Of a DNA stretch of 64,000 nucleotides, positions 18,115 to 50,567 are shown piece after piece. A model generated the notes under the pieces. The model worked only from the letters and a program-made list of their open reading frames with translations. It was not told where the DNA came from and ran no database searches. Source of the stretch: a virus; IMG/VR virus record IMGVR_UViG_3300030202_002001, positions 1-64,000 of that record, one strand, 5' to 3'. The first letter of the stretch is position 1. Each line of letters opens with the position of its first letter. The position numbers were made by a program, and so were the translations under genes.

Positions 18115-21100
18115 ATGATAGAAACAAACTCCCCATTAAGCCCACGGGTAAAGACATATCAGACTATTTCTGAATCTATACCCGAATTTGCGATATCGGA
18201 AAATCCAAAGTTTGTTGATTTTTTAACTCAGTATTATATCTCACAGGATTACCAAGGTGGACCTGCAGATATTGCTGAGAATATTGATGCATACATCAAA
18301 ATTGATAATCTTACTGTAGATGTAATTAGAGGCGGGACAACACTAACAAATACCATTTCTGCAACTGATGATGTACTCACAGTAGAAAGCACGGATGGAT
18401 ATCCCGATAAACATGGTCTAATTAAGATTGATAATGAGATTATAACCTATGACCAAAAAACTCAAACTAGTTTTACTGGATGTACGAGAGGGTTCAGCGG
18501 GATTAGTTCCTACTCTGCACCTAATAATCCTGGGAATTTAGTCTGGCAGCAAACTGTTGCTGCAGAGCATCTTAGTGGTGCCGCTGCTCAGAATGTTAGT
18601 GCTCTTTTCCTAAAAGAGTTCTACAAGAAATTGAAGTCCATGTATGCTCCTGGTTTAGAAGGAGTGAACCTGTCACCTCAACTGGATATTAATAATTTCA
18701 TTAAAGAAGCGAGAAGTTTATATGAATCAAAGGGAACTGAGGATTCTTTCAAGATTCTCTTCAAAGCGTTATTTGGAATTGACCCCAAAATCAACGATCT
18801 TGAGAAATATCTCATCAAACCCTCATATGCAAACTATGTAAGGAGAAAAACACTCTCTCTTGAGTTAATTTCTGGAGACCCCGCAAAACTTGTAGGTGAA
18901 ACTCTCTATCAGGACAATGATCCACTGAACGATAAGTTCAATGCGGCATCTGGTCCTATTTCTGAAGTTTCCAACATCAGAGACAACTATTTTAAATTAT
19001 CACTCTTTACTGGTTTTGATGAAAGATCACTTACTGATGGTATTTTCGTAGTTCCTGGTAAAACTAGAAATATTGGTGACATTGGTATTGGTGCGTCTGT
19101 ACTTACAGTTGATTCCACAATCGGATTCTCTAGCACAGGCACTCTGTCTATTGGAGCAACAACTTACACTTATGGACAGAAGAGTATTAATCAGTTCTTT
19201 GAGGTATCTCCACCAGTTAAGGATACAATTAAAAATAATACTGATATTTCTGCTCCTAACATCGTTTATGGTTTTGAGGAAGGAGATTCTAGTAAAAGAG
19301 TAGAATTTAAGGTCACTGGTGTACTTAACAAATTCCTCTCAAACGAGGTTTTGACAAGCCTTGATGATGACTCATCTATTAGAATTAGAAACCTGGGTAG
19401 ATTGATCGATAACCCAGAAATCAACAGAGGATACGAAGAAATTTTCTTCAATTCCTGGGTTTACAATACATCTACTAGATATGAGATTGATTCCTTCGGT
19501 GGATCCAGTTTTCTTCTGACTGGAACCCTTGATAAGAGTAGTTTGCGTAAAAATGATAAAGTTGATATTGTTAATAGAAATTCTGAGTTAGTTGCAGCAA
19601 CTGGACTGACTGTTGCGTCGGTGAATACTTCTACAAACACTGTTACTCTTTCTGGTAACATTCCTACACTGGATTCTTCATTAAAATACGATATTCGTCG
19701 AGTCCAATTCAAAGCAAGTTCTTCAACCGTCCCTATTAAGGGTGGACAAGATCAATTATTGGCAGATATTAATAATTCTTATATTGAAACTGAAAATGAA
19801 TCTGCAACTGGCAAAAGAGAGGGTTATGTAGCGTCTAGTTCTCTTCCTAGTTATCTTATTAATTCAGATAAAATTAGATCCACATTAATTGCCCCTACTG
19901 TCGCTCTTGGAAACTTTGACAACTACAATAGTGTAGAAGATGCATACTCTACACTTGCATTTACCAATGATGTTCCGTTTAGAACTGGTGACGAGATTAC
20001 ATATGTTCCTTCAGAGGGAACAGTTGCTATTAGTGGTCTTGAGCAAAAGAATTACTTTGTAAAAGTACTTAATCCTGCTAATAGGATTGAATTGTACACA
20101 TCTCGTGCCTTTATTAAGGCACAATTACCCGAATACTTCAATCCAATCGGATCTGGAGGAACTCATGACTTTATTCTTGCATCTCAAGGAAAAAGAGAGA
20201 TTTTTCCATCTAGACCTATTCGTAGATTTACTCTAGAGCAAAATCTCAAGAGTGGAAAAGAAGCACAGACAACATCTGAGGTTACTGCAGATGGTAATAC
20301 GGGTATGCTTGTTAATGGCCTTGAAATTCTCAATTATAAGGGAGAAGATCAGGTTTTCTATGGTCCTTTAAGTGCCATTAATGTTTTAAGTGGTGGTACT
20401 GGATATGATGTTCAAAATCCTCCAAATATCACTATTACTGATTCTACAGTTAGTGTAGCGAATACTGCTGGAGGTATTGTTTCTGTTGCAGGGACGGTTT
20501 CTGCCGTTTTTGTTGATCCAGTAGACTTTGACATTGATAAAGTTATTAGTGTTCAAATATTTGGAGGTAATGGTTCTGGAGCGCGTGGTAGAGCATTACT
20601 TGAGGAAAGATACCGTGAGATTCCCTTTAGCGGCATCAGCACCCTTTCTGGAGGCAATGTAGAGGCAGTTAATGACAGGTTTACCTTTGGATCCAATCAC
20701 AATTTAGTAACTGGCAATAGAATTGTTTATGACAGCAATGGAAATAGCAATTTAGGTATTGCTACTACTGGTGGATCAAAAGATGAGTTGACCCTAATGA
20801 GTGGTCAAGATTACTATGTAAGATCTTCTGGCAATCTCTCTCTATTCCTTCATTACTCAAAATCCGACTCTGTTCTAGGAATCAATACAATTTCTATCTC
20901 AGAAGATGCTGCATCTAGCAATAGTGGTCAGCATATCTTCAGAACTTTTGAGAAGAAGAAAACAATCTCTAGAATCAATATTGAGGATAGTGGTAGTGGA
21001 TATGCAAGTAGAAAATTATATGTAAAACCCGTAGGTATCAATACATTTGCTGATAGTGTGTATTTTGAGAATCACGGATTTGTCGATGGAGATATTGTAA

Positions 21101-24100
21101 ATTATTCCTTTGAAACCACTGGTATCACTGGATTAAGCACAACAAAACAATATAAAGTATTGAGATTAAGCGACTCTTCTTTTAGATTAGCAGAGTCTGG
21201 TAATAAGGGCGATGTATTACCTACTGATACGAATTACGATAAGAGAATCCATGCATTCTTAGATTCTCATGGATCTGGTCTTCAAAGATTTGAATATCCC
21301 GAAATTCAATGTACTGTTAAGGTATTAACCGAAGATCAGCAGGAACAGGAACTCACAGCAACACCAATTGTAAGAGGTGATATTACAGATGTAGTTCTGT
21401 ACGAACCAGGAGCTAATTATGGTTCTACAATTATTAATTTCCTCAATCCGCCAACTATTTCTGTTCCTAGAGGATCTTTAGGTCAAATTGGTCTGATTTT
21501 CTCTAATGGTAGAATTATTACCGCATTTGTTCAAGCTGGTGGTAGTGGTTACTCTGGTCCTCCTGATATTCAAGTTTCTAGTGCTAGCACAGAGGCTAAC
21601 GGTGCCGTTCTCAGAGCAATTGTAAATGACACTGGTAATATTACTGAGGTTAAGGTAATTTCTGGCGGTGTTGGATATGCTGCTAGTACTACTTCAGTAG
21701 CAATCACTCCAGTAGGAAGCAACTTAAGACTTGAGGCAGCATTAAGACCATTATTGATTAATAAGTCATATGGACTCAATGATACCGAATTAGATTACCT
21801 TGCCCCCTTTGGGGATGGTGTTGCAGTCAACTATATTGGTTATGGTAACTCTATCAGAAATTTCTTTGAGGATGATGGATCTAGCCACTCTCCTATCATT
21901 GGTTGGGCATATGATGGCAATCCAATTTACGGTCCATATGGATTAGAAGATCCTGATAACATCCAGTCTGATGTTAAGAGACAAGTGACTAGTTATAATA
22001 TTAATGCTACAAATATTGAAAATCGTCCTCCTATTTCAGAGTTTCCGTATGGATCACTGATTGAGGATTATGTTTACGACGGATCTGGAGATCTTGATGA
22101 ACATAATGGTAAGTTCACCAAAACTCCCGACTTTCCTAAAGGCGTTTATGCATATTTTGCGTCTGTAGATAATATCAATAAACCACTCTTCCCATATTTC
22201 ATCGGAGATACTTTCCGTAGTTTTGCCATTCCAGAAAACACTGTTAGGGGTTTGGTAATTGATCAGACCAACTTTGACTTTGAAAGTTCTAAGTTGGTAA
22301 GAAACACCTTCCCATATAACATCTTTGGCGATGGTAAGGTATATGATTATGTCTTCCAACCTTACAAAACCAATAACCAAGAAGCAAGACCAGATAGTTT
22401 AGGTGTTGGTTCAATTACCAGTATTGATGTATCTTTCCGTGGATCTGGTTATAGTGTAAATGATAAACTTGTTTTTGATGAGACTGGAACTAATGGCGGC
22501 GGAGTTTCTGCAGAAGTTCAACAAATTTTTGGAGCGGATATTGCTAAAGTAAGTAGTCAGATTGTATCTTTCTCGAATATGCCGTTTAAGGTAGGAAGAG
22601 AAAGAACAACATTTAAAATCTCCCCATATCATGAGTTTAAGGAAAATGATTTTGTAAGAATTACTGGTGTCAGCACATTTGTTTCTGGTATAGAAGAATT
22701 CCACAAAATTTCTGTAACTCCTTATTTTACAAATCTTGAGCAAGATGGATATTCTGGAATTGTTACTGATTTAAAAGTCAATCTTGTTCCACCAAATGTT
22801 TCCGCTGGTGATTCTATCGGGATTGGAACAGAAACAATGCGTATTCTTAACGCATTCCCAAGTGAAAAAATTCTTAGAGTAGAAAGGTATGCTGGATTTG
22901 CTACAGCTGCTGTAGGTGCTGCTGTTACCTATTTTACTAGCGAGTTTAGTTTCCCACTTAAAGAAACTACCCCAATTGATTCTAGATTCCAAGAATTTTA
23001 TTATTTCAATCCTAAAGAGTCTGTTGGAGTTGGAACCACAGTTGGTTTCTCCACATCCGTAAATGTTTCATTGAATGGAGTAACTAAAACTAGATCAATT
23101 ATCTCACAATCTATTCATATTGGTGAGCATGATCTTAAAACTAATGATTTAGTCACATTCAGTAAAAATGGAAATGCAGTAATCAATGCTACTGATTCAA
23201 TTAGTCCTTATACTGCTCCCAGTGCTCTTGGATCAAGTCTATATGCAGTTCGTAAGACTTCCACTACGATTGGTCTTAAGACCTCTCCTGATGGCGCAGA
23301 GCTCTTCTTCACTAACACTGGTGATGATGCTGCAAATTATTATTTCCAGACAAATTATAATCAGGAAACTTCTGATGTTGAAAGAGGTGAATTAACTGTT
23401 CAAACCACTGGCGCACATAATCTTAGTATTGGTGATAGAGTAAACCTCACAGTAAAACCTGGTCTTACCACTGGAATTGGACCAAATGAAGATATTACAG
23501 TCAAACTATTAGATAATAACTTAATTATTAATCCTATTGATCTACCCACAACGGGTGTCAATACGGTAACAAATACTTTCACTATTTCTGATCATGGTTT
23601 GGAAACTGGATTCAAAGTCTTGGCCTATGGTGCTTTGGGTATTGAGGATACTCTTCCCGATAGGTTATTCCAAAGAGCATACTTTGTCCTGAAGGTTGAT
23701 AATGATCAGTTCCAATTATCAGATTCTAGAAGTCAGTTATTCTTAGATCCTCCAGAAGTTGTAAATGTAACTGGCGTTGGATCTACGGGACAAACAATAA
23801 ATCCAATCAATCCACCTCTACAGATAACTAAAAATAATAATGTAGTATTTAATTTGAACGATCCATCACTTCTTGGTGGTAAATTAAAAATCTTCTACGA
23901 TAGCAATTACTTCAATGAGTTTGTAGGAAGTGGAACTACGGATAATTTAGAGGTTGTCAATGTCAATACGGTTGGACTTGGAACTACAGTTCCATCTGAC
24001 ATGGCTAAATTGACATTAAATTATAATAATTCGTTTACAAGCGAAGTTTATTATGGTTTGGAAAAAGGTGGTTATATGTCAACCTCGGATACTGGGGTTG

Positions 24101-27100
24101 TAGCATATAACAAGATTGGTTTCATTGATAGTGCATTTAATGGAAAATATAATGTAACTGGTGTTGCGGGGACAGAGTTTACGACAACTCTCTCTGTGGA
24201 TCCAGAAAAATCTAATTACTCTGTAGGAGATTGCACTGACCTTTTCTACACCACAACATCTATTGGTGCAACTGGTGGTATCTCAAAGATTCGTTTGATT
24301 AATAATGGATTTGGTTATCAGAAGATTCCTGCAGTTACATCTATTGGAAACAGTGGAATTAGTGCTAATCTCCTCCTTTCTGGACCAGACATCAACAGAA
24401 TGGATAGCGTGACTGTTCCTACGGATGTTTACGGTTATCCCTCTGATAATACTCTGAAACCAGACGCATTCTTACCTAGAACAGTATTTGTAAAAAATGC
24501 AAATAGAGTAATTGATGTTGAAGTTACTTTTGGTGGTAAATCCTACTTGAACGCACCTTCTCTTGCGTTGTATGATAAGTCAACGGGAGAAATTGTACAA
24601 AATGGTTTGCTTACTTGCGATCTTAGTGATTCCGCTGTAAACACGGCTCAAGTTGTTGTACAACCTAGAGGATTGACAGGAAACGACTATGGTGTCGCTC
24701 CTCTGCAAAACAGTAACGGAATTTCTATTATTCAGGCATTCTCCGATGTTGGTGTTCTTACATGTAAGATTACTACACCTGTTCTTGGTTATGTCAATGA
24801 ACCATTTACTGTTGGTGAAACAGTATTCCTTGAGGGTATTCAGTTTAATGGTGATGGTGATGGATTTAACTCTGGAGACTATAAGTTTGTCAATTTTCAA
24901 ATTGATGATTATAACTCGGCAACAAACCCAAGAGAAGTATCATTTAAATATACTGGACTCACAACAAATGTTGGTACTGGTGCAACTGTAGTTCCTGGTT
25001 TTGGTCAAATTGTAAAGGCAGGCAACTTAGCACAATTTAGTTGCTCTAAAGCTTTCTCACCTTTCTCTAAAAACGAACCTCTCAGAAGAAATGATGACCC
25101 ATCTACTGATCTGATTTTGAGATCTATTGATACCAATACTGGTATTATGATTATTGAGGGTGCTAGACCTCTGGAAGCAGACGATCTTCTCGTAGGAACC
25201 AATAGTGGTGACCGTGCTGAAGTTGATAGTGTCACTGTATTCGATGGTTATTATGATATCGATTCTACAATTGATACTGCTATTGGATGGTCTGATAACA
25301 TTGGATTGATCGGTGATAGTAATCAATTCCTTCCCGATAATGATTATTATCAAAACTTGTCATATGCAATTGAAAGTGATAAGACATACGAAGAGATTAT
25401 TACCTATGTAAATGATATTGTCCACCCCGCTGGACTGAAAAACTTTGCTAATACTCAAATTCTATCTGTTGGTGATGCTGGAGAATCAACAAGACCCGCA
25501 GATGATGCTGGTGGATTTGTTCTTGACTTTATTAGCGATCCGTTAAGAGTTGATGCAATTTATGGTTTTGACCTTGCTAGAGATGTAGATTCTTCTAATA
25601 ATGTTTCCAAGTTCGTAGAACTAAGATCTACCAGACTTGCAGATTTTATTCTCAATAAGACAAATAGAGTTCTTATCCATGATGACATCAGTCCTCAGTT
25701 TGTTAGCAACGAATCTAATGATTTAAGCGATGATAGAACTATCGCCGCGGCCGTTGCTGGTAGAAACTTTGCAAGATATCTGATTCTCACTTCTCATGAT
25801 GCTGAGAATCCACTCAACAATCAATATCAGTTCAACGAAGTTGTTCTAGTTGCAATTGAAGGCAATACTTATCTACTTCAGAAATCTCAGATAAACAATA
25901 CTAACAATGTTGGACTTGCGACTGGATATGCAGAGTTCTTTGCCTTCTTTAATGCAAATGACAATATTACTGAGGTAAGAATCAAACCTTATGAGACATT
26001 TGACACCAACTATGATATTAAGGCATTCCAGCAAGGATTTGCTTCTGATGTAGGTATTGGTTCAGTCAATACTGGCAATGTAGTAAACTCTTCTGCTAAT
26101 GTTACCGTTTCTGCTGGAACAACAACAGAAATCACTGGATTTAGTACAGATACATTTGTTGCTGGTATTGGGCACTTTGTTATCGTAGACAATGCCGATA
26201 ATAAGGTAGATTATGTTGAGTTGGCTCTGCAACATGATGGAACAGATACCTATCTGACCGAGTTGGCATCATTCAATACTCGTCAGAGTCTTGGTGGTCT
26301 TTCTTCCCCAACATTCATGGGAACATTCACTTCTTCAATCGAAAGTGGAGTTGTCAAGATCAATTATATTCATAATGAGTTAATTCCATTATCTGTTAGA
26401 AGTAAATTTGTATCTTTTGAGAATGTTGGACTTGGTACAACCACAGTCAGACACCTTAATCTAGAATTTACTCCAGAAGGAACAGAAAGGACCGCAAGAG
26501 TAGTTGTGGGATCCTCAGCAACTACAGGTATTTCCACGGTTGTTGGAGTTACTAGTTTTACCGATCTTGCGTTCAAATCAACAGTTCATGTTGCTTTTGG
26601 ATCTACACAGACATTACATCAAGTTTATGTAATGTCCGATCCCGAAAAAGGAGACACATTTATTTCACAGCAACCAATTGCTGCCATTGGAACAACTACT
26701 GGAATCGGTACATTTGGTGCTGAGTTTAGTGGAACCCAATTAAATCTAGAATTCTATCCAGATGCAGGTGTATCTGGAATGGTAAGCATTTATTCTTACA
26801 ACGAAGTTCTTTATAAAGATGCTGATCCTAACGGTACTCTTGCTGGTATTGGTTCATTTGATTACGGTAAGGTATTTGAAAATGTTACTCAGAACACATA
26901 TCTGGGTATCAACAATAGAAATCTCAGAAGCTTTGATCTTAAATATCAGGGAACTCCAATCTATGAGAGAAATCTAAACCCACAAAACCCCAATCAACTT
27001 GATTTTGGCACGGGTCTAATCAGTTTCAAACACTTCTTCTCTAATACTGAAGAAGTTTCTTACAATCCAGGATCAAATATCGTTGGTGTTGCTGCCAGTG

Positions 27101-30100
27101 CATTGCAATATGTTACTGGATATGGACATACATCTCTACCTGGCACGGTCTTTATTGTTAAGAACAATAATAACCAGTTCTTCATCTCTACCAATATTAC
27201 CGATGCTAGACAGGGTATTGCAGTAACATTCCAACCTGGAACTGCTGCTGGTAACCAGCATAGATTCACAATGAACAAGAGAGATGAAAAGACCGTCATC
27301 GCTCTTAATGGTATTGTTCAAAAACCAATTTCATTTACAAGCATCATTTATGATTTGGATGTTGCTGTAAATGGTGTTGTTACATCTTTCGCTCTTAGTG
27401 GATTGAGCACTGTTACTTCTGGTGACCTTCTTAAGATTGAAGAAGAATACTCTATTGTAAGAACTGTTGGTTTTGCAACTCAACCATCTGGTCCTATTAC
27501 TGGTATTGGAACCTGGAGTATTGTTGAAGTAGAAAGGGGTGCTGTTGGATCTGCTGCTACAGATCACTCTGCTGGTACTGTAGCAAGAATCCATAGAGGT
27601 GCCTTCCAGATTCTCAATAGCGAAATTCACTTTACTGAGGCACCTTTAGGTGGTGACCTCGGAATTATCAACCCTGCTAATCTTCCTTATCCTAGAGCAT
27701 CCTTCGGCGGTAGAACATATCTAAGAAATGATTACAGAACTAATGAATTGTTTGATGATTTCTCAGACAAGTTTGATGGTCTTGAGAATACATTCCCACT
27801 TACAGCAACTGGTGCTGCTGTAACTGGTATTGGTTCTACTGGCGGTAATGGCGTTCTGTTTATTAACGGTATCTTCCAAGCACCGTTTGGTGAGAATAAT
27901 GAGGGGGTATCCAACTTTAAGATTCTTGAGAATCCCGTTTCTACTGCTGCTAGTGTTCAGTTTAGCGGTATCACATCGGTTGGATTTACGGATCTAATTA
28001 TTGATGAAGATGATATTAATCAAAACCAACTTCCTAGAGGTGGTGTAATTGTTTCGGTTGCTTCTACACCTGGACTTGGTTATGCACCTTTTAATGGTGC
28101 AGCAGTCAAAGTTAATGTAAACACTGCAGGAACAATTACTGAGATTGTTGGTGTTTCTACAACAGGAACGGCAGTGAATATTATTGATGCTGCTTATGAT
28201 AATAAGACTGGCATCATGACAGTTTCACTTGCAGATAATCATAAACTTGTCCTTGAAGATCAAGTCAAGTTAGTTGGCCTTGAGTTCACATGTCCTAAGG
28301 TTCCTGTCGGAACTCCTGATGGGTTTACTTATGATCCTTCTACAGGTATTTCTACCATCTCGTTTGCAAGTCCTCATGGACTAGTAAATGGAGATGCAAT
28401 CTCTATTGAAGCGAACAGCATTACATTTACATGTACACAGGGTCCTGGTAACCACACATATCCCCGCGTAACTGATCCTGCATTCAATCAGTACCTCACA
28501 ATTTCGGGTGTAACTGCAAATTCATTCAAAGTCAATGTCGGGACTGGTGGCACAGGTACATCTCCACATACATTCGTCAGTGCTGATACTGATTCTATTA
28601 AAACTCTGAATTATCAGGGTATCACTACTACAACATTCCCAGATCATAATGATCCCTTCTATGTTGTTGGTGTTACATCCGCAACAACATTTAAGGTTCA
28701 GGTTGGTGCATCTACCATTCCTCATACTTATGTGAGTGGTGGAACTGCCGCAGAATTCTTCCCACTTACATTTGGTTCTGGATACAGAACTACATTAGGT
28801 ACAATTGGGATTGCAATCACTGATCGTGCATATAATCACAAGTTTGTATCTGCTGGGGTCAATTCAATCTTTGATAATACGGGAGCAAGATATACTGCTA
28901 CCAATGCTAGATATACCTCTAGTACAGGTAAATTAGTTCTTACCCTTCCTTCACATGGTTTGACCACCAGTAATACCATTGGTATTGATACTGGATCTCT
29001 TGGATTGTCTTGCTCTAAAGATAACTATCTAAGCGTAAATCTGTATCCTAGATCAACTGATCCTGTTGCTGGTATTTTCACCGCAATTGCTTCTACTACT
29101 GTAAATACCGTCACAGTCAATGTTGGACCTGGTGGTGGTGCTGGAACAGGAGCAGATGTTTCTGCAGTTGTTGGTGTTGGTGGTAGCCTCGTATTTACAA
29201 TTAATTCTGGTGGATCTGGATATCGTGATCCCGATGCATTACCTCCAGAACCCAATGGAGAAAACCTTCCCATCGTAGGTGTTTCTAGAATTGGTCTTGG
29301 TGCTACTACACTAACTGGTGTTGGTTGTTCTATCGCTGTCCAAATCGCAGGTGTATCTACAGCAACTGGAATTGGTTCAACTCTGTTTGAGGTGTCCGAT
29401 TTTGACTTTGTTAAAAAGGGATATGGATTCAAGCGTGGAGACAAATTTACAGTCACTGGTCTTTCTACTGATCCAACTGCAGGTGATGACTTTAGACAGT
29501 TTGAACTTGAAGTAATTGATGTATTTACTGACCAAGTTTCTTCCTGGCAGTTCGGTAACATTGATTATCTTGACAACATCAAACCATTCCAAAATGGAAA
29601 TCAAAAGAGATTCCTTCTCTACTATCAGTCTTCATTGGTCAGTTTTGAGATTGATAGAGGTGACTTGGATTCTAAAGAAATTGACCTTTCTGCAGTTCTA
29701 TTAATCTTCATCAACGGTGTTATTCAAGAACCAAACATCAACTATTCATTCGATGGTGGATCAGTTATTGAATTCAATAGTGCTCCAACTGCTGAAGATA
29801 ATGTTGTTATCTTCTTCTATAGAGGAACTATCGGTCAAGATAGTTTCCTGAATGATATCAATGAAGTTATTAAAGTTGGCGACAACTTGAAACTAAGAAA
29901 GAGTGCCCAAATTGAATTGAATCAAGTTCCTGCAGAAACAGGAAACCTTTCCCAAAGTGCTAATAGAATTGTCAAGAGGATTGATAGTGCTGCTACGGTA
30001 GAAACTGCATTCTATCGTGGTGTAGGTATCAGCAACGATAACTACAAACCTATGGATTGGATCAAGCAGAAGAAGGACATTCTGGTTGATGGTTCATTGG

Positions 30101-30876: not shown

Positions 30877-30879
30877 ATA
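30872..30879 (+). promoter_or_regulatory. T4-type late promoter TATAAATA before gp8
   Basis: Perfect TATAAATA overlapping the stop codon of the giant gene, 34 bp before ATG 30913. Confidence 0.75.
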
Positions 30880-40175: not shown

Positions 40176-40198
40176 TAGGATAATCCGTGATGTAAAGA

Positions 40199-40537
40199 AT
40201 GGCAGTTTACATTGCTAATCTCTCAGTCGATACAGGTGTTGATTTTCAACATGGGTTCAGTCTAGGAGATAACGACACAGGCACTTTTTTGAACTTAACA
40301 AACTATACCTGCACCTCTCAACTAAGAAAGTGGGCGGGGAGCTCTACTGCTGTTTCGTTTGCATCTACAGTCACCGATCCCGAAGCAGGTCAGATCCAGA
40401 TATCTCTGGCATCTACGCTTACAGCTGATATTAAGCCAGGGCGATATGTATATGATGTGAATCTTGAAGACTCTGGTGGATTTAAATACAAGGTCGTTGA
40501 AGGAATGGTCCTAGTCAGAGCAGGAGTAACAAGGTAA
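40199..40537 (+). CDS. Beta-sandwich virion protein (112 aa)
   Basis: MAVYIANLSVDTGVDFQHGF..., followed by NLTNYTCTSQLRKW, then strands GQIQISLAS, GRYVYDVNL, VVEGMVLVRAGVTR. The DTG-x-DF ... NLT ... start resembles the N-terminal domain of baseplate upper proteins such as BppU, and the pattern fits a small beta sandwich. Coupled to the next gene by an overlapping stop/start. A fibre or baseplate attachment role is inferred from context. Confidence 0.65.
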   Translation: MAVYIANLSVDTGVDFQHGFSLGDNDTGTFLNLTNYTCTSQLRKWAGSSTAVSFASTVTDPEAGQIQISLASTLTADIKPGRYVYDVNLEDSGGFKYKVVEGMVLVRAGVTR

Positions 40538-40749
40538 TGCCATCATTACGAATAGGCACATCTAATCAAGTAAAAGTTATTGCCAGCGGTGCCCTCGGAG
40601 GTGGCTCTGGCGGTAGACTGACATTGCTTGCTGATGTTGATGCATCAACACTAGAGGATGGAAGCATCCTGGTATATGAAGCGGCGTCGAACGCCTTCAA
40701 AACAACAAAAAATTTCCCTGCTGCCATCATTGACGGAGGTGTCTTCTAA
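40537..40749 (+). CDS. Small fibre-associated protein (70 aa)
   Basis: The ATG overlaps the previous stop. MPSLRIGTSNQVKVIASGALGG, then LTLLADVDASTLEDGSILVYE, resembling the repeat at the start of many phage fibre proteins (DV.....DG..L.Y). It may be a separately encoded fibre N-terminal domain. The stop overlaps the start of the large fibre gene. Confidence 0.6.
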   Translation: MPSLRIGTSNQVKVIASGALGGGSGGRLTLLADVDASTLEDGSILVYEAASNAFKTTKNFPAAIIDGGVF

Positions 40750-43700
40750 TGTCCGCAACGATTCTCTTAAAAAGGACACTTGGAACATCCCCACCGAATA
40801 TTGCACCAGTTGGTACTGGAGTCTCATTTGGTGAACTTGTTTACGCATACGATACTAGCGATGTAGGTGCTGGTAAGTCGTACAAGAAATTATATATTGG
40901 TAGTCCATCAGGTCCTGGTTTCGCACCTATTCCTATTGGTGGTGAATATTACACCAGCCTGTTCAATGACAATCCTTCCGATTACGGAAAACCTCAAGCA
41001 TCTAAAGTCTTAATCTTAGATGATCAAGCAAAGGTTGCTTCCTGGTTTGTTGTAGATGATTTCTACACAGCAGGTGTTGGTACAGTTGCTGGAAACTTTA
41101 CTGTTGGTGGCAACCTTAATGTAACAGGAGACCTCGTTTATGATGAGGCAAATGCTAGAAACTGGAATGTAACTGGCATTGCAACTGCTGCTACATTAGA
41201 TGTTGGTGCTGCAGGATTCTCTACCCTAGGTGTAACTGACTTCCGTGCAGTTACTGGTGTTGTAACCACTCTTAGTGGTACAAGTGCTGACTACTACGAA
41301 GTAAATGTAGGACACGCACTTACTGCAAATAATGTAGAAGTTACTGGGGTATCATCCTTCAGTAATATTACATTCTCCAATGATATTATTAGAGTTGGTC
41401 GTGATGCTGCCGTAGGTCTTAGCAGTGCCGACTCTTCAATCTTTATTGGTGACTTTGCTGGGGCTGGTATTGGACAAACTGTCCTTAACCGTCGTAATAT
41501 TGCGATTGGTGCCAGTGCAATGCAATATGCTGGTATTCTTTCCAGCAGTGACGAGTTAGAATCTAACATCGTCATGGGTAACTTTGCAGGCTATCGCTTG
41601 CAAGGTACTAAGAACTTGATGATTGGTGATAAGGTAGGTTTTGCCTTATCTTCTAGCGGCAACGATGAGAACATCGCTCTGGGTAACCAGTCGATGTATG
41701 GTGAGACTTTCCCTGTTGTTGATGGGGTAACTCTCAGCGTAACTGTCGGAGAACAAACTGCTGTTGCAAATTATGATCAGACAGAAGATGTAACCGAAAC
41801 CAGTGGATCTGGTGTTGGACTCTTAGTTAGATTACAGACTGGTAATACTGGTCTGATTACTAACATCGAAATCATGGCCCCTGGCGATGGTTATGAGGTT
41901 GGTGATACATTCACCATGCCGTTTGGTTTCCAGACTCTTACAGGTAGCGTAACTAGCAAGAATGGTCGCTTCCTAGGTGGTGGTACAGGAACCAGACAGC
42001 AGCAAAGAAACATTGCTATTGGTCCTTACACTCTCTTCAGTGTAGACGGTAGTAAGAACATTGCCATTGGTTACTCTGCTGGTAACGACACTCTTGGTAG
42101 TGGCAATGTCATCATCGGTTATGAACGAAATGTTGCTATCGGAGATAGCGACAACCAGCTCGTAATTGGTAATCAAAATATTAATTGGATCGACGGTAAC
42201 CAACTTGGTTATGTCGGCATCGGCACCACACGACCATTCGGGTTGTTAGATGTTGGTGGTGTAGTAATTGTTGATAAAGGCACTGGTAACACAGTAATCG
42301 CTGGCGTAACATCTGTTCCGCAAATTGATGCTAATGATATTGGTGTTGAGGACATTAAGGTCACTGCTGGTTTAGCAACTGACTTTGCAATTACCAACGC
42401 TAAGATTCAGTCAGGTATTATTACTGACACTGTTGGTACTGCTGCAACTATTACGAATGTAGATTTCGTAAATGCAGACATTGAAGATGTCAAGATCACT
42501 GTTGGTCTTGCTACTGACTTTGCAGTAACTAATCTGAGATCTCAGGTTGCGATTGCAACTAACGCTTATATTGATGTAGGTGTTGTAACATCATTGGTTG
42601 GCACCTATGCCACAATCACAACCTTCGATTCTAACGAAGGTGATATCAATACCCTGAAGACAGTTGCTGGTGTCGTTACATCACTGACTGGTTTTGGTGT
42701 AACTTACAATACAGCAGACTTTGAGAATCTTGACGCATTTGATGCGAAGATTACAACTGGTATTATTACATCTTTGGTTGGTACATATGTAACCTTCCAA
42801 GATGCTGACTTCCAGAAAGATGTCAGAGTTGGTGGAGCCCTTACTGTTGTTGGTGATCTGACCGTCAATGGAACTACAAGTTTCGTTCAGAGTTCGGTTG
42901 TTCAAATCACCGATAAGAACATTGAACTTGGTTTCAGTTCTACTGGTGGACATGCTGATGCTACGGCCGATAATGGCGGTATCATCGTTAAGGGAACAAC
43001 TGACAAAGAATTCTTATACGATCAAGCAAGAGAAGCATGGGAGTCTAATCTCAAGTTTACTCCTAGTGCAGATGGAACTCTGGATATCGGTACTACTGAT
43101 AGAGAGTGGAAAGACATCTACATTGATGGTACAGCACATCTTGACGCTGCTGACATCCTTGATGCCAAAATCACTGCTGGTATTATCACCAGTCAGGTTG
43201 GCACCTATGCAACCATTGGCACCGTTGATATCGAGACTCTCGATGCCAAGGATGTAAACATCACTGGTCTTGCTGTAACCGATATTGTCGGTACTGCAGC
43301 AACAATCACGACCATCGATGCTACAGAAGGTGATATTGTTAATGCAAAGATTACCGCTGGTATTATTACCAGTTTGGTTGGTACTGCTGCTACTATCGGT
43401 GATGTTAATATCACTGGAGACCTCAGAGTTGGTGGAGCTACAACCTTTACTGGCAATGTAACCTTCAATGGCGGTACAATCGGCCTTGGTGATTCCACTA
43501 CTGATAACATCGTCTTTACTGGTGAAGTTGACTCTGATATCGTTCCTGATGATGACGATACCTTTGATCTTGGTAGTGCCGCTAAAGAGTGGAAAGACAT
43601 TTATATCGATGGCGTTGCTCGTGTTGATGACCTGATTGTTGATTCAACAGTCGGTACATATGCGACAATCACAACTGCTGATATCGATGTACTCGATGCA

Positions 43701-46700
43701 AGACAGACAAATATTACTGGATTAGCAGTCACCGATATTGTCGGTACTGCTGCTACTATCACGACAATTGATGCCACAGAAGGCGATATTGTCAACGCTA
43801 AGATCACTGCTGGTGTTGTAACCTCACTGGTTGGCACCTACGCTACGATCACCACGGTCGATATTGAGACCCTGGATGCAAAGCAAACAAATATTACTGG
43901 ATTAGCAGTTACTGACATTGTTGGTACTGCAGCAACTATCACTACGGTTGACTTTGAAGTTGCAGACATTCTAAATGCAACTGTCTCGGTTGGTATTGCA
44001 ACCTCTGCATTCGTACAAGCTGGTTTCATTACCTCACTGTATGACTCCACTGGTGTAGTTGGTCTCAATACTCAGCACATGCTGAGCACCAATCCTGATG
44101 GCACAATCACCTGGCGTGAACCTGCACAGATTGGTATCGCTACAATCAATGCCAAGTTGGATACATGGTTTGTATCTACTAATGGTGTTGACGATGATGA
44201 TGCATCTCGTGGACGCACAGCAGAGAGGCCGTATAGAACTGTTGCATATGCTCTTTCACGAATTTCTCAGGTTGGTCCCAACGATGTCCTAAACATCTCC
44301 GCTGGTGTTTATGAAGAAGTCTTCCCACTGACTGTTCCAGCTGGTCTGACAGTCAAGGGTGCTGGTCTCCGTGCAACCAAGATTGTTCCTACCACTGCTA
44401 CTAAGCAGAAGGACTGCTTCTTGATGAATGACAGATCAGTCGTCGAAGATATCACTATTGGTGATATGTTCTTTGACACTGCTGGCAATCAGGGTTATGC
44501 GTTTAAGTTTGCTCCTGGTATTGCGATTACAAGCAGATCACCTTATGTTCAGAGAGTCACTGTATTCAACAAAGGTAGTAATACTACTGCTGCTGATCCT
44601 TATGGTTATGGATCTGCTGATTCTGCACCTTCCTCCTACATCGCTGGTGGTGGTGCATACATCGACGGTTCTGAGGTAGCATCAGGATCTCTTGAGGCTG
44701 CGTTCCTGTTCAATGAAGTTACTTTCATTGTACCGAACAGCAAAGGTCTGATTATGACCAACGGTGCTCGTACTGAGTACCTGAACTGTTTCTCTTACTT
44801 TGCTGCTGAAGCAATCAAGGGTACTTCTGGATCTCTTGGTATTAGTTCTGCTGGTGAGACAAGACTAAGACTGACTGGTATCACTACTGTTGGTGTTGGT
44901 AACACGATTACTGTCTTTGATACTGACGGAACTACTGGCGTTGCGACTGCTATTGTTGCTTCTTATGACGGCACTTACATAGGTGTAACTGGTAAGCAAA
45001 CTGGTTTTGAACTTCTGAATGCTAGAACTGCTAAGGCAGTTACATTCAACGATGGTGCTCAATTAGACACAACTGTCAAGAAGTTTGGTAGTGCATCACT
45101 CGCACTTGACGGAACCAATGATTCTATCAGCGTTCCTTCTAGTGGTGATATTGGCTTTGGCACTAATATAGACTTCACGATTGAATTCTGGGCATACGCA
45201 AATACAACTGGTCTGACTAGCGCAACTCTCTTTGACTTGAGAGATAACGGCACCGATGCTGAAGGTATCAGTGTTGCATTCCGTGCTGCTGGTGAAGTTG
45301 ATATGCGGGTTGGTACTACCACCGCTATCACTGGATCTGGTGCAGGCATCGCTACAGGCGTCTGGAAGCACTATGCACTTGCTAGAGACGGCACAAACAC
45401 TAGATTATTCGTTGACGGTACTCAGAGGGGCATCAAGACCTCAGATACAACTGACTACGGTGCGTCTAAAGGTATTGTAATTGGTGCTGATTTTGATGGT
45501 GCAAGTCAAAATGTCACTGGTTGGATTGACGATTTCAGAATTGAAAGAGGAGTTGCCAAGTACACCGCTAACTTTACTGCTCCTACTGCTGCACATACTG
45601 GCGATAAGGACACTGTTCTCTTACTCGACTTTGATGGTGCAAGTGGAGTAACCACAACCACTGACAATGTAATCCGCAATCAAGATATCCGCATCACTCA
45701 AGCGGGTGGCGGTATCGGAACTGCAACTAAGGTTATCCTTGCTGACTACAGCGAGTTCGGTGCGGACATGCGTTCGGTCGGATGTGCTGTTGAATATGGT
45801 CAGAAGGGTGTCATCGCTGATGGTGATGGCGTAAGTCTGAGAATGTTTGCCCTGAACTTCAACCATGTTGGTTCTGGTGGCGACTTCACAAACGATCCTA
45901 ACCTGGCAATTCAGGCGAACGAAGTCACTGAACTAAACAACGGTGATGTATCTTTCGTAAGTATTGATCAAAGAGGAGACTTCAGAGTTGGTGACGCATT
46001 CTTCGTTGATCAAGAAAACGGTACGGTATCGTTCTCACAGCAGGTAACCAGCCTCCAAGCACTTTCTTCTCTCCAAATTACTGACGGAACTAACAGCAGC
46101 ACTGTTACTCCTACAAGCGGTACATTCGGTAATATCCAGATCTCTGGAAACAACATTGAATCTACCTCAGGTGATATCAACATTGACCCTGCTGGTGCTG
46201 GTGATATCAACATCACTGGTGATGTCAATGTCCTGGGTATCCTAACTGCGACAACTATCCAACTTGACTCTTTCCAGAAGAACGATACTTCTATCGCTCT
46301 GGATGATTCTGGCGCTAACGGCACTATCAGATTCAATACTGATAATGTTGAGGGTATGCGTCTCGACGCTAATCAGAAGTTGGGTATCGGCACAGCCGCA
46401 CCTAGACAAAGATTAGATGTTCTTGACACTGCTAAGTTTGAAAGACTTGATGTAACTGGCGTATCTACATTTGCTGAAAGAGTTGATTTCAACCTCAGCA
46501 TTGACGCAGTTGACGCAAAGATTACTGCAGGTGTTGTAACATCGCTGGTTGGTACATTTGCCACCATCACTACTTTTGATACTGAGACCCTAGATGCTAA
46601 AGATGTAAACATCACTGGTCTTGCTGTAACAGACATTGTTGGTACTGCTGCAACAATCACAACAATTGATGCAGAAGCACTTGATGCTTTTGACGCAAAA

Positions 46701-47516
46701 CTCACTGGTATTGCTGTTACAAACGCAGTATTCACTGGCATTGCATCCTTTAAAGATAATGCCAAACTGCACTTCGGTGATGATGATGACCTCTCCATTT
46801 ACCACGATGAGAATAATTCATACATCGATGATTCTGGAACTGGCACCCTTGCAATCCGTTCTAATCAGGTAGAACTTCAGAAGTACACTGGCGAAACTCT
46901 TGCCAACTTTACTGCTGATGGTGCTGTTACTCTATTCTATAACAACGGCATTAAGTTCGAGACATTAGCAATTGGTGCTAGTATTCGTGGCGTAACTCAG
47001 ACTGGAACAATCGATGTTGCTACTAATGCAAACATCCATTCCACTCTGACTGTAGATCAAGGAACAATTCTTACAGGAATTGTAACTAGTTCTGCTGGTA
47101 TTGAAGCAATCAACATTAATGTCTCTGGCATTCTCACCACTAACAACTTTAGAGTTACTGGTGTAACAACGATCTCCGATGTCACGATTGGCGCTGGCTC
47201 TTCCTCAACCAAAATAAATACCAATACTGGAGAACTTGTTCTTGATTCTGCTGCTGGTCAGGTAACTGTCCAAGACAATCTGAGCATAATCGGTTACGGA
47301 ACATTCCGTGACGGTCTATATTACAGATCGGATCAAGGCGGAATCAATGGTATTGGATATAGCGGACCTAACGGTGTTGCATTCTTTGAAGCAGATGGAA
47401 GACTGGTTAGCGGTCTTAGCACTGTAGGATTCTTAACAACCTCCAATTACATGCTAACCACAGATGAGAACAACATTCCAATTTGGTCTAACAGTGTTGA
47501 TGGAGGAACATTCTGA
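40749..47516 (+). CDS. Large tail-fibre-like adhesin, 2255 aa (YadA-like, pectin-lyase-like and LamG-like domains)
   Basis: Domains in order: N-terminal attachment (1-130). YadA-head-like left-handed parallel beta repeats rich in NIAIG, NIVMG, NLMIG and NVAIG (~245-485), containing one Gly-Tyr module (GDGYEVGD). A long stretch of ~45-residue repeats built on LAVTDIVGTAATITT and AKITAGIITSLVGT (~520-1090, again ~1915-1985). A pectin-lyase-like solenoid start (DDDASRGRTAERPYRTVAYAL, ~1145). A LamG/concanavalin-like jelly roll (~1447-1620, with FTIEFWAY and WKHYALARDG). The C-terminal tip starts near 2180. No intramolecular chaperone is obvious. It suits a host-binding fibre with a glycan-binding LamG domain. 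Confidence 0.85.
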   Translation: MSATILLKRTLGTSPPNIAPVGTGVSFGELVYAYDTSDVGAGKSYKKLYIGSPSGPGFAPIPIGGEYYTSLFNDNPSDYGKPQASKVLILDDQAKVASWFVVDDFYTAGVGTVAGNFTVGGNLNVTGDLVYDEANARNWNVTGIATAATLDVGAAGFSTLGVTDFRAVTGVVTTLSGTSADYYEVNVGHALTANNVEVTGVSSFSNITFSNDIIRVGRDAAVGLSSADSSIFIGDFAGAGIGQTVLNRRNIAIGASAMQYAGILSSSDELESNIVMGNFAGYRLQGTKNLMIGDKVGFALSSSGNDENIALGNQSMYGETFPVVDGVTLSVTVGEQTAVANYDQTEDVTETSGSGVGLLVRLQTGNTGLITNIEIMAPGDGYEVGDTFTMPFGFQTLTGSVTSKNGRFLGGGTGTRQQQRNIAIGPYTLFSVDGSKNIAIGYSAGNDTLGSGNVIIGYERNVAIGDSDNQLVIGNQNINWIDGNQLGYVGIGTTRPFGLLDVGGVVIVDKGTGNTVIAGVTSVPQIDANDIGVEDIKVTAGLATDFAITNAKIQSGIITDTVGTAATITNVDFVNADIEDVKITVGLATDFAVTNLRSQVAIATNAYIDVGVVTSLVGTYATITTFDSNEGDINTLKTVAGVVTSLTGFGVTYNTADFENLDAFDAKITTGIITSLVGTYVTFQDADFQKDVRVGGALTVVGDLTVNGTTSFVQSSVVQITDKNIELGFSSTGGHADATADNGGIIVKGTTDKEFLYDQAREAWESNLKFTPSADGTLDIGTTDREWKDIYIDGTAHLDAADILDAKITAGIITSQVGTYATIGTVDIETLDAKDVNITGLAVTDIVGTAATITTIDATEGDIVNAKITAGIITSLVGTAATIGDVNITGDLRVGGATTFTGNVTFNGGTIGLGDSTTDNIVFTGEVDSDIVPDDDDTFDLGSAAKEWKDIYIDGVARVDDLIVDSTVGTYATITTADIDVLDARQTNITGLAVTDIVGTAATITTIDATEGDIVNAKITAGVVTSLVGTYATITTVDIETLDAKQTNITGLAVTDIVGTAATITTVDFEVADILNATVSVGIATSAFVQAGFITSLYDSTGVVGLNTQHMLSTNPDGTITWREPAQIGIATINAKLDTWFVSTNGVDDDDASRGRTAERPYRTVAYALSRISQVGPNDVLNISAGVYEEVFPLTVPAGLTVKGAGLRATKIVPTTATKQKDCFLMNDRSVVEDITIGDMFFDTAGNQGYAFKFAPGIAITSRSPYVQRVTVFNKGSNTTAADPYGYGSADSAPSSYIAGGGAYIDGSEVASGSLEAAFLFNEVTFIVPNSKGLIMTNGARTEYLNCFSYFAAEAIKGTSGSLGISSAGETRLRLTGITTVGVGNTITVFDTDGTTGVATAIVASYDGTYIGVTGKQTGFELLNARTAKAVTFNDGAQLDTTVKKFGSASLALDGTNDSISVPSSGDIGFGTNIDFTIEFWAYANTTGLTSATLFDLRDNGTDAEGISVAFRAAGEVDMRVGTTTAITGSGAGIATGVWKHYALARDGTNTRLFVDGTQRGIKTSDTTDYGASKGIVIGADFDGASQNVTGWIDDFRIERGVAKYTANFTAPTAAHTGDKDTVLLLDFDGASGVTTTTDNVIRNQDIRITQAGGGIGTATKVILADYSEFGADMRSVGCAVEYGQKGVIADGDGVSLRMFALNFNHVGSGGDFTNDPNLAIQANEVTELNNGDVSFVSIDQRGDFRVGDAFFVDQENGTVSFSQQVTSLQALSSLQITDGTNSSTVTPTSGTFGNIQISGNNIESTSGDINIDPAGAGDINITGDVNVLGILTATTIQLDSFQKNDTSIALDDSGANGTIRFNTDNVEGMRLDANQKLGIGTAAPRQRLDVLDTAKFERLDVTGVSTFAERVDFNLSIDAVDAKITAGVVTSLVGTFATITTFDTETLDAKDVNITGLAVTDIVGTAATITTIDAEALDAFDAKLTGIAVTNAVFTGIASFKDNAKLHFGDDDDLSIYHDENNSYIDDSGTGTLAIRSNQVELQKYTGETLANFTADGAVTLFYNNGIKFETLAIGASIRGVTQTGTIDVATNANIHSTLTVDQGTILTGIVTSSAGIEAININVSGILTTNNFRVTGVTTISDVTIGAGSSSTKINTNTGELVLDSAAGQVTVQDNLSIIGYGTFRDGLYYRSDQGGINGIGYSGPNGVAFFEADGRLVSGLSTVGFLTTSNYMLTTDENNIPIWSNSVDGGTF

Positions 47517-48337
47517 TGGCAAAACCAACAACTAGACAGGAACTCAAGGATTATGCCCTAAGGCAACTTGGGTATCCTGTCTTAGAGATCAATGTAGCTG
47601 ATGAGCAAGTAGACGATCATTTAGATGATGCCCTTCAATTATTTTATGAGCGTCATTTTGATGGCGTAGAAAGAGTTCTTCTTAAGTACAAAATCTCCGA
47701 AGATGACATCAAACGAGGCAGAGCAAGAGGCGCAAGCAACACTCTTGGTATTACTACTTCTACTACAACATCTGGAGACTTTGAAGAAAATTCAAATTTC
47801 TTAAATTTACCCGATGCAGTTATTGGTGTTGAGAAACTTTATCTTTTTGATTCTAGTTTCATTGCCAACAACATGTTCAGTTTCAAATATCAATTGTTTT
47901 TGAATGATGTTGCATTTAATCTTGGATATAGTGGCCTTCTCAGTTATGCGATGACGAAAACATATATTGAAGATATTGATTTCTTACTATCTACAAACAA
48001 ACAGATCAGATATAACAAAAGAAATAATCGACTTTACTTAGATGTAGATTGGGGTGCTATTTCTGCAGGAACCTACATAATTATTGACTGCCAAAGAATC
48101 ATGGATCCTGCAAATTATGCTGGCGTCTATAACGATTCTTTCCTCAAAAAATATTTCACATATCTCGTTAAGAGACAGTGGGGTCAAAATCTTATAAAAT
48201 TCCAAGGAGTCAAACTTCCTGGAGGTGTTGAATTAAATGGTAGACAAATTTATGAGGATGCTGTAATGGAACTACAACGCATCGAAGATAAGATGCTTTC
48301 CACATATGAAGTCCCACCTCTTGATCTTATTGGGTAA
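47516..48337 (+). CDS. gp13: Neck protein gp13
   Basis: 273 aa (T4 gp13 309). KPTTRQELKDYALRQLGYPVL and ADEQVDDHLDDALQLFYERHFDG are typical of gp13 head-completion proteins. SFLKKYFTYLVKRQWGQNLIKF and a C-terminal GRQIYEDAVMELQRIEDKM complete the pattern. gp13 and gp14 seal the portal vertex and join head to tail. Overlapping stop/start with gp14. Confidence 0.9.
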   Translation: MAKPTTRQELKDYALRQLGYPVLEINVADEQVDDHLDDALQLFYERHFDGVERVLLKYKISEDDIKRGRARGASNTLGITTSTTTSGDFEENSNFLNLPDAVIGVEKLYLFDSSFIANNMFSFKYQLFLNDVAFNLGYSGLLSYAMTKTYIEDIDFLLSTNKQIRYNKRNNRLYLDVDWGAISAGTYIIIDCQRIMDPANYAGVYNDSFLKKYFTYLVKRQWGQNLIKFQGVKLPGGVELNGRQIYEDAVMELQRIEDKMLSTYEVPPLDLIG

Positions 48338-49767
48338 TGGCGTTAAATCCTTTCTTTCTTCAAGGATCTCCTAATGAGCAAAATCTCATTCAGGAGATCA
48401 TAGACGAACACCTAAAAATGTTCGGTCTTGATTGCTATTATATTCCTAGAAAGATGATTGTCACCGATGATGTTCTCGGTGAGGTGCAGTCATCCAAATT
48501 TAATGATGCATATATTTTAGAAGCATATCTCAATAACTACGAGGGATATGCTAAAGGTAGCGATATCATGACTAAGTTTGGTATCAATCTTCAAAATGAA
48601 ATTACTCTAACTATTTCTAGGGAAAGATACGAAGACTTTATCGCTCCATTTGTAGTTACCCATAATGCAAAAAACGCTGGAAATGATATTGTTTTTGGTG
48701 AAAGACCTAAAGAAGGAGATTTAATCTACTTCCCGCTCGGTGAAAGATTATTTGAAATCAAACATGTAGAGTTTGAGAATCCATTCTATCAACTTGGTAA
48801 GAATTATATCTACGAACTTAACTGTGAACTATTCCGTTATGAAGACGAATACATCGATACTGGCGTATCCACTATTGATGAGAGAGGAATGGAAGAGGGT
48901 GAGACAACCACTGTTATTCTTGCTGGTATTGGTTCTACTGCAACTGCAATTGTTGACTCCTTCGCTAGCCAAGGTGCATTAGGACAAATTTTCCTTAACG
49001 ATGATGGATATGGTTATACTAGTGCGCCGACCGTCACTATCGCACCTTCTCCTGCTGGTGTTACTTCATCTAGGGCAGGTGCGTTCGCGTTTACAACAGA
49101 AAGATCAGGTTTGTATTCTGTCGAACAAGTAGTCCTACAAAACCCTGGATTTGCATACACAGAATCACCAGCGTTCACATTTGGCGGTCCTGGTGTAGGT
49201 GCCGCGGCCACAGCATCACTTACAAATAGTGGTATTACTTCTATTCGTATTACTGATCTTGGGACAAATTATGTATCTCCTCCCATCATTACTATTCAAC
49301 ACCCCTCGGATGTTGGCATTGGTACATCAGGCGCTACGGTCGGTGTAAAAGCGGGTCAAGTACAAGCAACTGCAATTTCTATTCTTGATGGGGATAGTAT
49401 TAGTAGAATATTCTTGACTAACGCTGGATCTGGATATGAGGGTGTACCAGAAATTAGTATTGGCGACCCATTATCGCTTGGTGTGGGAACATATTTCTTC
49501 AATGAAAGGGTGGTTGGATCGCAATCTGGAGTAGAAGGATATGTGAGATCATTCAATACAACTGATAGAAAACTAGAAGTTTCAATAAATACTGGTAAAT
49601 TCTTCCCTGGTGAATTTATTACTGGAACGGCATCTTCTGCAAGATATCAAATATTAAGTCATAGTGGAATTGATACTACTACCAATTTTACATTCAATGA
49701 TGAGTTTGAGACTGAGGCAGATTCAATTCTAGATTTCACTGAAATTAATCCGTTTGGTACTTTCTGA
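48337..49767 (+). CDS. gp14: Neck protein gp14 with Gly-Tyr repeat insertion
   Basis: 476 aa, nearly twice T4 gp14 (256). Residues 1-190 carry the gp14 core: NEQNLIQEIIDEHLKMFGLD, YYIPRKMIVTDDVLGE, RPKEGDLIYFPLGERLFEIKHVEF, described in pieces, and YELNCELFRYEDE. After residue ~205 comes a run of four Gly-Tyr modules (DDGYGYTSAPTVTI, NPGFAYTESPAFTF, LGTNYVSPPIITI, NAGSGYEGVPEISI). The family-like C-terminus follows (EADSILDFTEINPFGTF). The insert may decorate the neck. Overlaps gp13 and gp15 by one base each. Confidence 0.88.
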   Translation: MALNPFFLQGSPNEQNLIQEIIDEHLKMFGLDCYYIPRKMIVTDDVLGEVQSSKFNDAYILEAYLNNYEGYAKGSDIMTKFGINLQNEITLTISRERYEDFIAPFVVTHNAKNAGNDIVFGERPKEGDLIYFPLGERLFEIKHVEFENPFYQLGKNYIYELNCELFRYEDEYIDTGVSTIDERGMEEGETTTVILAGIGSTATAIVDSFASQGALGQIFLNDDGYGYTSAPTVTIAPSPAGVTSSRAGAFAFTTERSGLYSVEQVVLQNPGFAYTESPAFTFGGPGVGAAATASLTNSGITSIRITDLGTNYVSPPIITIQHPSDVGIGTSGATVGVKAGQVQATAISILDGDSISRIFLTNAGSGYEGVPEISIGDPLSLGVGTYFFNERVVGSQSGVEGYVRSFNTTDRKLEVSINTGKFFPGEFITGTASSARYQILSHSGIDTTTNFTFNDEFETEADSILDFTEINPFGTF

Positions 49768-50567
49768 TGTTAGGCACTTATTTTTATCACGAGATTTTAC
49801 GAAAGACTGTTATTGCTTTCGGAACTCTATTTAACGAAGTCCACATCCAAAAAGAGGATAAAAGTGGAAATACAATCAGTGATCTGAAAGTTCCTTTAGC
49901 GTATGGTCCTAGATCAAAGTTTCTTGCAAAACTTGAACAGCAGCAAGAACTTGCAAAGGCAACTGCAATCACTCTTCCTAGAATGTCATTTGAGATGAAT
50001 AGTCTCTCATATGATCCTACTAGGAAAACTTCAGTAACTAAAACATTTAAAGCCGTTGATAATAAAGATAGAGTAAAGAAAGTATTCCTCCCAGTTCCAT
50101 ACAATGTTGGGTTTGAACTTAACATAATGACTAAGTTGAATGATGATGCTCTACAAATTGTTGAACAAATTTTACCATTTTTTCAACCATCTTTTAATGT
50201 TACTGTAGATTTAATAAACTCTATTGGTGAGAAAAGAGATATTCCAATTGTATTAGAGAATCTTACATTCACAGATGAGTATGAGGGTGATTTTTCTACA
50301 AGAAGAGTTCTCACATATACTTTGAATTTTAGTGCAAAAACATATCTATTCGGTCCTATTGCCGAGAGTACAGATGGACTTATCAGAAAAGTACAAGTGG
50401 ACTACTACTCTGATACTGATAGACAGACTGCTAAGAGGGAAATGAGGTACACTGCTGAACCAGATCCAATCACAGCAGAACCAGGTGATGACTTTGGATT
50501 CAGTGAAACTAATACATTCTTTGATGATGGTAAAGTCTACAGTCCTACTAGGCAGGAGGATGTATGA
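49767..50567 (+). CDS. gp15: Tail sheath stabilizer/completion protein gp15
   Basis: 266 aa (T4 gp15 272). MLGTYFYHEILRKTVIAFGTLF, ALPRMSF-type ITLPRMSFEMNSLSYDP and VPYNVGFELNIMTKLNDDALQIVEQI, described, are characteristic. gp15 forms the hexamer capping the tail and binding gp3, gp18 and the neck. Overlaps gp16 by 4 bp. Confidence 0.93.
   Translation: MLGTYFYHEILRKTVIAFGTLFNEVHIQKEDKSGNTISDLKVPLAYGPRSKFLAKLEQQQELAKATAITLPRMSFEMNSLSYDPTRKTSVTKTFKAVDNKDRVKKVFLPVPYNVGFELNIMTKLNDDALQIVEQILPFFQPSFNVTVDLINSIGEKRDIPIVLENLTFTDEYEGDFSTRRVLTYTLNFSAKTYLFGPIAESTDGLIRKVQVDYYSDTDRQTAKREMRYTAEPDPITAEPGDDFGFSETNTFFDDGKVYSPTRQEDV

Follow-up and report, generated by a model that had tools for sequence, protein, structure and literature searches.

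A glycine-tyrosine repeat module common to five virion proteins of a T4-like marine cyanophage, probably an Ig-like decoration domain

The window, the whole stretch of 64,000 nucleotides analysed here, holds the structural gene cluster of a T4-like marine cyanophage and is part of a viral record of 95,560 bases. The genes follow each other on the + strand in the order gp6 (639 aa), a gp7-like protein, gp8, a DUF4815 protein, a fibre and gp13–gp16, then gp17–gp20. The proteins were named from Pfam, PHROGs and the annotated relative ACG-2014f, in which the orthologue of the gp7-like protein is annotated as baseplate wedge initiator. Five of the proteins carry the repeat described below:

18115..30876, + strand: 4253-aa gp7-like baseplate wedge protein (phrog_2885), with 8–9 GY units
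30913..32487, + strand: gp8 baseplate wedge protein, 524 aa (Pfam PF09215, phrog_438, PDB 1n7z)
32492..39814, + strand: 2440-aa virion protein (DUF4815, phrog_358)
40749..47516, + strand: 2255-aa fibre protein
48337..49767, + strand: gp14 neck protein (head closure Hc2), 476 aa (PF11649, phrog_460, PDB 9mkb/9lu4)

The cores of gp14 and gp8 are of the T4 type by their matches to PF11649 (6.7e-33) and PF09215 (1.4e-14), in addition to the PDB matches. Other domains were also recognised in the carriers. The 4253-aa wedge protein includes a YHYH domain at 21874-22170 of the window (Pfam 6.5e-22), which in other proteins is a predicted metal-dependent hydrolase (PMC7824862), and another recurrent stretch, HG(F/L)xxGDxV, for example at 21067-21192, with a sub-threshold Pfam match to E1_FCCH. 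The fibre has a Concanavalin A-like (Laminin_G_3) lectin domain at 45108-45542 (E 6e-17).

The repeat unit, called here the GY unit, is about 40 aa long, and the iterated profile converged on the consensus ATATATVSNGGITSVNITNGGSGYTSPPTVTISGP. Profiles detected about 17 units in total in the five proteins, at the following places:

20362..20442, + strand: unit 1 of the 4253-aa protein (unit profile, i-E 3e-5 in 15 window proteins)
20962..21009, + strand: weak unit of the 4253-aa protein, absent from the earlier list (unit profile, i-E 0.0015)
21370..21708, + strand: cluster of the 4253-aa protein, with units at 21370, 21502 and 21604 (profiles)
22399..22479, + strand: unit of GSGYSVNDKLVF type in the 4253-aa protein, absent from the earlier list (profiles)
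24250..24564, + strand: unit of the 4253-aa protein at 24250-24351 and a weaker neighbour at 24496-24564 (unit profile)
29152..29229, + strand: unit of the 4253-aa protein (unit profile)
31558..31776, + strand: pair of gp8, aa 216-288 (unit profile; hhalign against the 2440-aa module 8e-11)
38084..38320, + strand: pair of the 2440-aa protein, the second unit of GYxVGD type (2440-aa orthologue profile)
41742..41951, + strand: one clear unit (GDGYEVGDTF) of the fibre (2440-aa-orthologue profile E 7e-6; iterated 1.6e-12)
48946..49470, + strand: four units of gp14, aa 204-238, 251-285, 289-323 and 344-378 (profiles)

Each place at which a unit had been claimed in the sequence-only reading of this DNA holds one, and three places in the 4253-aa protein (20962, 22399 and 24496) are new in comparison to it. 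The pair of the 2440-aa protein lies at the same position in nearly all of about 50 orthologues, and also the position of the gp8 module is fixed among relatives. No GY units were found in the remaining 31 kb of the record.

The literal pattern by which the repeat was originally described, (G/N)-x-G-Y-x3-P-x-(V/I)-x-(V/I), was seen three times; shuffling of the five proteins produced it 0.007 times on average, and seven control virion proteins did not contain it. The pattern is thus above chance, but it fits only three of the about 17 units. The proline is missing in the second gp8 unit and in the units of the 2440-aa protein and the fibre, which end in GY-x-G or GY-x-VGD; the variant second half of the latter two proteins is GYxVGDxxxI. 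Because a looser literal pattern was significant in gp14 and the 4253-aa protein only, motif counting was replaced by profiles.

The profile constructed of the four gp14 units alone found the 4253-aa protein (E 1.5e-5) and no other window ORF, in six frames, under 0.15. The iterated profile, with orthologues from 160 viral contigs and six annotated phages, found gp8 at 8e-12 and the 4253-aa protein at 1.7e-23, the best of 1895 reversed ORFs being at about 0.25. Neither the 2440-aa protein nor the fibre was significant with the unit profile as first iterated. When a profile of 2440-aa orthologues only was run against all window ORFs, it detected gp8 (1.2e-9), the fibre (7e-6) and gp14 (3e-4), the next ORF being at 0.14. 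Profile-profile comparison gave 8e-11 for the 2440-aa protein and gp8, 9e-6 for gp8 and gp14, and 2e-5 for the 2440-aa protein and gp14. All five proteins scored above the reversed and shuffled controls, and no GY units were present in the control virion proteins gp6, gp13, gp15 and gp17–gp20. Since the profiles and the profile-profile comparisons agree, one homologous module is common to all five window proteins. The proposal of a single module in wedge (gp8 and the gp7-like protein), DUF4815 protein, fibre and neck was thereby borne out by cross-profile matches, and the similarity persisted once profiles were built, those from separate orthologue sets recovering each other. That the likeness stems from convergence of low-complexity, glycine-rich beta repeats, by composition and not by descent, is hardly credible: the units are rich in G, T, S and A, the tools subtract large composition biases and the sole weak Pfam match of the consensus was to PGRS repeats (E 0.007, below the cut-off and rejected as compositional), but reversed proteins and shuffles never reach GY scores, the separate profiles find each other and the control proteins lack the unit, and on the reversed and shuffle controls this source was rejected.

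The units also account in part for differences in protein length. The gp14 of the window is 476 aa long and that of T4 256 aa; aa 3-181 align with T4 gp14, and the GY array (aa ~191-380) makes up about 190 of the 220 extra residues. The GY units, to which the extra length had been attributed, are thus the reason for most of it. The C-terminal part after the array is conserved in cyanophages and not alignable to T4. In gp8, where aa 3-203 and 488-524 align with T4 gp8, the same explanation held only in part: the units contribute about 70 of about 190 extra residues, i.e. about a third, but not the rest. The T4 structural region, gp8 and gp14 included, contained no GY units. The T4 proteins are homologous to the cyanophage gp14 and gp8 in their cores, and unlike them in being without the units.

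Outside this virus, the GY consensus matched 21 PHROG families, among them those of wedge, hub, fibre, head closure and virion structural proteins. There was no accepted match to the consensus in Pfam or NCBIfam, and the Ig-like models of these two libraries matched neither the full proteins nor a consensus triple. The unit was matched by 423 of 50,697 phage records, 393 of them cyanophages. The module is nevertheless not a cyanophage speciality, since phages of other kinds and cellular proteins also match. In bacterial and archaeal genomes 177 places matched the unit; the best 80 of the 177 belonged to Bacteroidota, Verrucomicrobiota, Planctomycetota, Chloroflexota, Actinomycetota, archaea and others. 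Up to 22 units were present in one cellular protein among the matches listed; a Pedobacter SusD protein and multicopper oxidases also carried GY pairs.

Among the other phages, coliphage ep3 had a GY pair in its tail sheath (aa 190-255), and an Arthrobacter prophage had one at the C-terminus of the tail tube protein, behind the tube domain. A Nguyenibacter prophage of the XM1/Pam3 kind had pairs in both the capsid cement and the sheath (DUF3383), in the stretches L243:4791-5543 and L243:8783-10225; here too, independently, a single module is found on two components of the same virion. A Foldseek search against BFVD produced mainly cyanophage virion proteins and was informative only as confirming the spread. 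The family thus includes added domains of wedge, neck, fibre, sheath, tube, cement and tailspike proteins, and is absent from T4 gp8 and gp14. No paper on the GY repeat was found in the literature searches made.

The AlphaFold2 models of gp14 and gp8 had poor cores (overall pTM 0.43 and 0.62, respectively). The pLDDT was 72-88 over most of the GY array of gp14 and 85-92 in the GY pair of gp8, both being all beta. In both models each unit was formed by strand, turn, strand, GxGY loop and short strand; prediction thus gave the same strand pattern for the units of both proteins. Foldseek analysis of the two whole models against PDB detected only gp14 and gp8 cores and no Ig domain. Because of this, and of the low model confidence, the assignment to an Ig-like fold rests on homology to D3*, a domain of the marine tailspike Dpo31.

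Dpo31 of Cobetia phage Carin-1 (PDB 28LX, 28MG, 8CK1; PMC13317679) resembles the window proteins as a virion protein into which two GY units, spaced by 43-45 residues, are inserted. The solved structure of D3* (aa 434-536) is described by its authors as Ig-like, protruding from the beta-helix and having a distant likeness to sugar-binding domains (PMC13317679), at a DALI Z of only about 2.9 (PMC13317679). Residues 451-505 of Dpo31 were the top PDB match of the GY pair profile, with an E of 0.03 that is weak alone. With the iterated profile the segment scored 31 bits, the maximum in 20,000 shuffles of the segment being 16.5. Beyond its own phage and Carin-5, tblastn with the segment found cyanophages only, P-RSM4 and S-TIM4 at 3e-3, and the one match inspected, that of P-RSM4, was in the protein adjoining gp6, i.e. 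in the gp7-like wedge position. In hhalign, D3* reached 4e-8 against the unit alignment and 3e-7 against gp8. In the whole of Dpo31, GY units were found only at aa 432-506, coincident with D3*, which places this domain in the family. The GY units are very probably homologous to D3*, as judged from these sequence comparisons, though not with certainty, because Dpo31 went undetected with a profile of the 2440-aa type. Unlike the window units, D3* is a single domain on a tailspike depolymerase, ending about 30 residues past the second unit, and the paper describing it draws no link to the GY repeat family (PMC13317679). A cyanobacterial lectin in PDB also matched the consensus (E 0.008); it was rejected as compositional, the alignment being without the GxGY spacing.

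The units tend to occur in pairs. Counted as one per genus and length, cellular arrays of at least two units included 75 with an even and 22 with an odd number, and those of at least three units 37 and 22, respectively (p 0.03). There are two units each in gp8, the 2440-aa protein, sheath, tube, cement and D3*, and four or two in gp14. The rule is not absolute, since the gp7-like protein has many runs of one or three units, perhaps partly because neighbouring units were missed. It seems that two GY units make one sandwich.

In a tree of 89 pairs the modules grouped by host protein, with 13 label changes in comparison to 54.5 when labels were shuffled. The gp8 modules formed one clade with a support of 99. 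The gp8, 2440-aa and fibre modules were placed together, and the gp14 modules with cellular and sheath modules; the deeper forks were weakly supported. Because of the grouping by host protein, the modules appear to be old residents and not recently mobile: inherited in place, acquired at least partly separately, and not spreading now. The idea of a mobile module that colonised several proteins therefore stands for deep time, but not for recent mobility. The number of copies still varies, from 6 to 19 units in the gp7-like proteins, and with 2 or 4 in gp14. The gp7-like proteins of S-RIM2 and S-IOM18 (L003:19539-38675 and L257:716-19879) are about 6380 aa long and have 19 units; the same count gives 6 units for the 4253-aa protein of the window.

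The GY pair is probably an Ig-like, all-beta decoration domain of virion proteins, an outward-facing accessory serving adhesion and/or stabilisation. This is supported here by the homology across five proteins, the wide distribution, the all-beta prediction, the homology to D3* and the old, fixed positions. Additional domains of sheath proteins are located away from the tube, and many of them are Ig-like (PMC9230969), and Ig-like domains are found on tube, capsid, fibre and baseplate proteins of phages (PMC9022992); they are accessory and exposed, and are thought to contact cell-surface sugars weakly or to stabilise the tail (PMC9230969, PMC9022992). By analogy with these, the GY modules would be exposed on the surface of this virion, and homology and position point to adhesion or stabilisation as their function. 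The 'decorative' character suggested in the sequence-only reading fits, because elsewhere this module is carried by proteins of sheath, tube, cement and tailspike.

The proposed arrangement is that two consecutive units of about 40 residues would fold into one small all-beta domain of Ig-like kind, each unit being laid out as strand A, turn, strand B, GxGY loop and short strand C, and that exposed loops or junctions of virion proteins would be the sites at which this domain is inserted. There would be one pair in gp8, one in the 2440-aa protein, two in gp14, several in the gp7-like protein and one in the fibre. The conserved Gly, Tyr and Pro would be structural and the rest of the surface free to diverge. 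The domain would be unnecessary for the core job of any carrier protein, because T4 gp8 and gp14 lack the units and the gp14 of relatives has either 2 or 4 of them. During adsorption it may provide low-affinity, multivalent contact with host-surface or extracellular polysaccharide, and/or it may stabilise neighbouring subunits.

The conservation of gp14 decreases from 0.78 in the core to 0.61 in the GY array. In the array, 27 positions are kept in 90% or more of the gp14 orthologues. Of these, 25 are G, A, P or Y, conserved contact residues being absent, and across the whole family only G and Y are near-invariant. Judged from this pattern, the array would be a scaffold with a free surface rather than a shared binding site.

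The main rival to the accessory reading is that the modules form a rigid beta spacer or cement, which lengthens or locks neck and wedge without any ligand. It is possible, if not favoured, and its strongest case is gp14. The C-terminal arm of T4 gp14 (aa 178-256) rearranges to bind gp15 (PMC12270204). The GY array separates the core from the C-terminal part, and its position matches the T4 core/arm junction exactly, so that it could extend or brace the joint to the gp15-binding arm. A spacer would also agree with the purely structural nature of the conserved residues and with the fixed position of the module in gp8 and the 2440-aa protein among relatives. However, relatives sharing this neck differ in the number of units in gp14, from 2 to 4, which is odd for a measured spacer, and the same module is present on cement, sheath, tube, tailspike and cell-surface proteins, which have no such joint.

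It is improbable that all copies bind one common ligand or pack into one coat on the particle, as had been suggested from the sequence. Five virion proteins of one particle carry the same module, as do two of an unrelated prophage, and both observations would suit such a role. However, the common ligand or coat is left unsupported because the conserved residues are structural (G, Y, P and A, accounting for 25 of the 27 conserved array positions), near-invariance across the family is limited to G and Y, and the modules have diverged by carrier protein. In addition, wedge, neck and fibre are far apart in a T4-like particle.

The reading of the GY pair as a decoration domain has parallels in known systems. 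According to the account in PMC9022992 (after Fraser et al. 2006), the phage Ig-like domains (Big_1, Big_2, I-set and FN3) are small accessory beta domains on tube, sheath, capsid, fibre and baseplate, and they occur, like the GY module, in unrelated phages and in bacterial surface proteins (PMC9022992). The GY module differs from these families in being a half-domain repeat with GxGY and no match to Pfam Ig-like models, and in being found in neck gp14 and wedge gp8. The BACON tandem repeats of crAss-like phages, as described in PMC6949934, are also small beta domains of virion and bacterial surface proteins. They are comparable by analogy only, BACON being a sequence family other than GY. The probable mode of working, that of a phage Ig-like decoration domain, is a known one; what is new is a sequence family outside the Pfam Ig-like families and without a model in the libraries searched.

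A wider reading, speculative and rather doubtful, is that the GY pairs represent a family of Ig-like surface modules that had no name before, extends across the domains of life and equals the known phage Ig families in its spread. In marine T4-like cyanophages, this family would make one multivalent adhesive surface, tuned to host polysaccharide, out of the neck, wedge, fibre and giant wedge proteins. If this were true, the number and surface of the GY units would contribute to cyanophage adsorption and host range.

Marine cyanophages belong to the most abundant viruses, and for most of their giant structural proteins the annotation goes no further than 'hypothetical'. The GY module, which can be tied to a solved structure, provides an annotation for segments of five proteins of the window and of 21 families of phage proteins, and gives a handle on the larger necks and wedges of cyanophages in comparison to T4. 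The catalogue of phage Ig-like decoration domains gains a family that Pfam and NCBIfam models miss. In other phages, sheath, tube and capsid cement carry this module independently. During chemostat evolution of S-PM2d, mutations arose repeatedly in gp8 and in hypothetical proteins of very large size (PMC9910659).

A second shared module, distinct from the GY unit, was also present in the window, with the consensus IIGEKIVGSSSGATAYVVSADSGSSTLEVYLTSGKFQPGETITFEESSATY and no Pfam match. The 2440-aa protein has four copies of it (32777-32851, 33941-34060, 35057-35212 and 36605-36667), gp14 one copy behind the GY array (49486-49665), and gp8 one weak copy (32059-32154).
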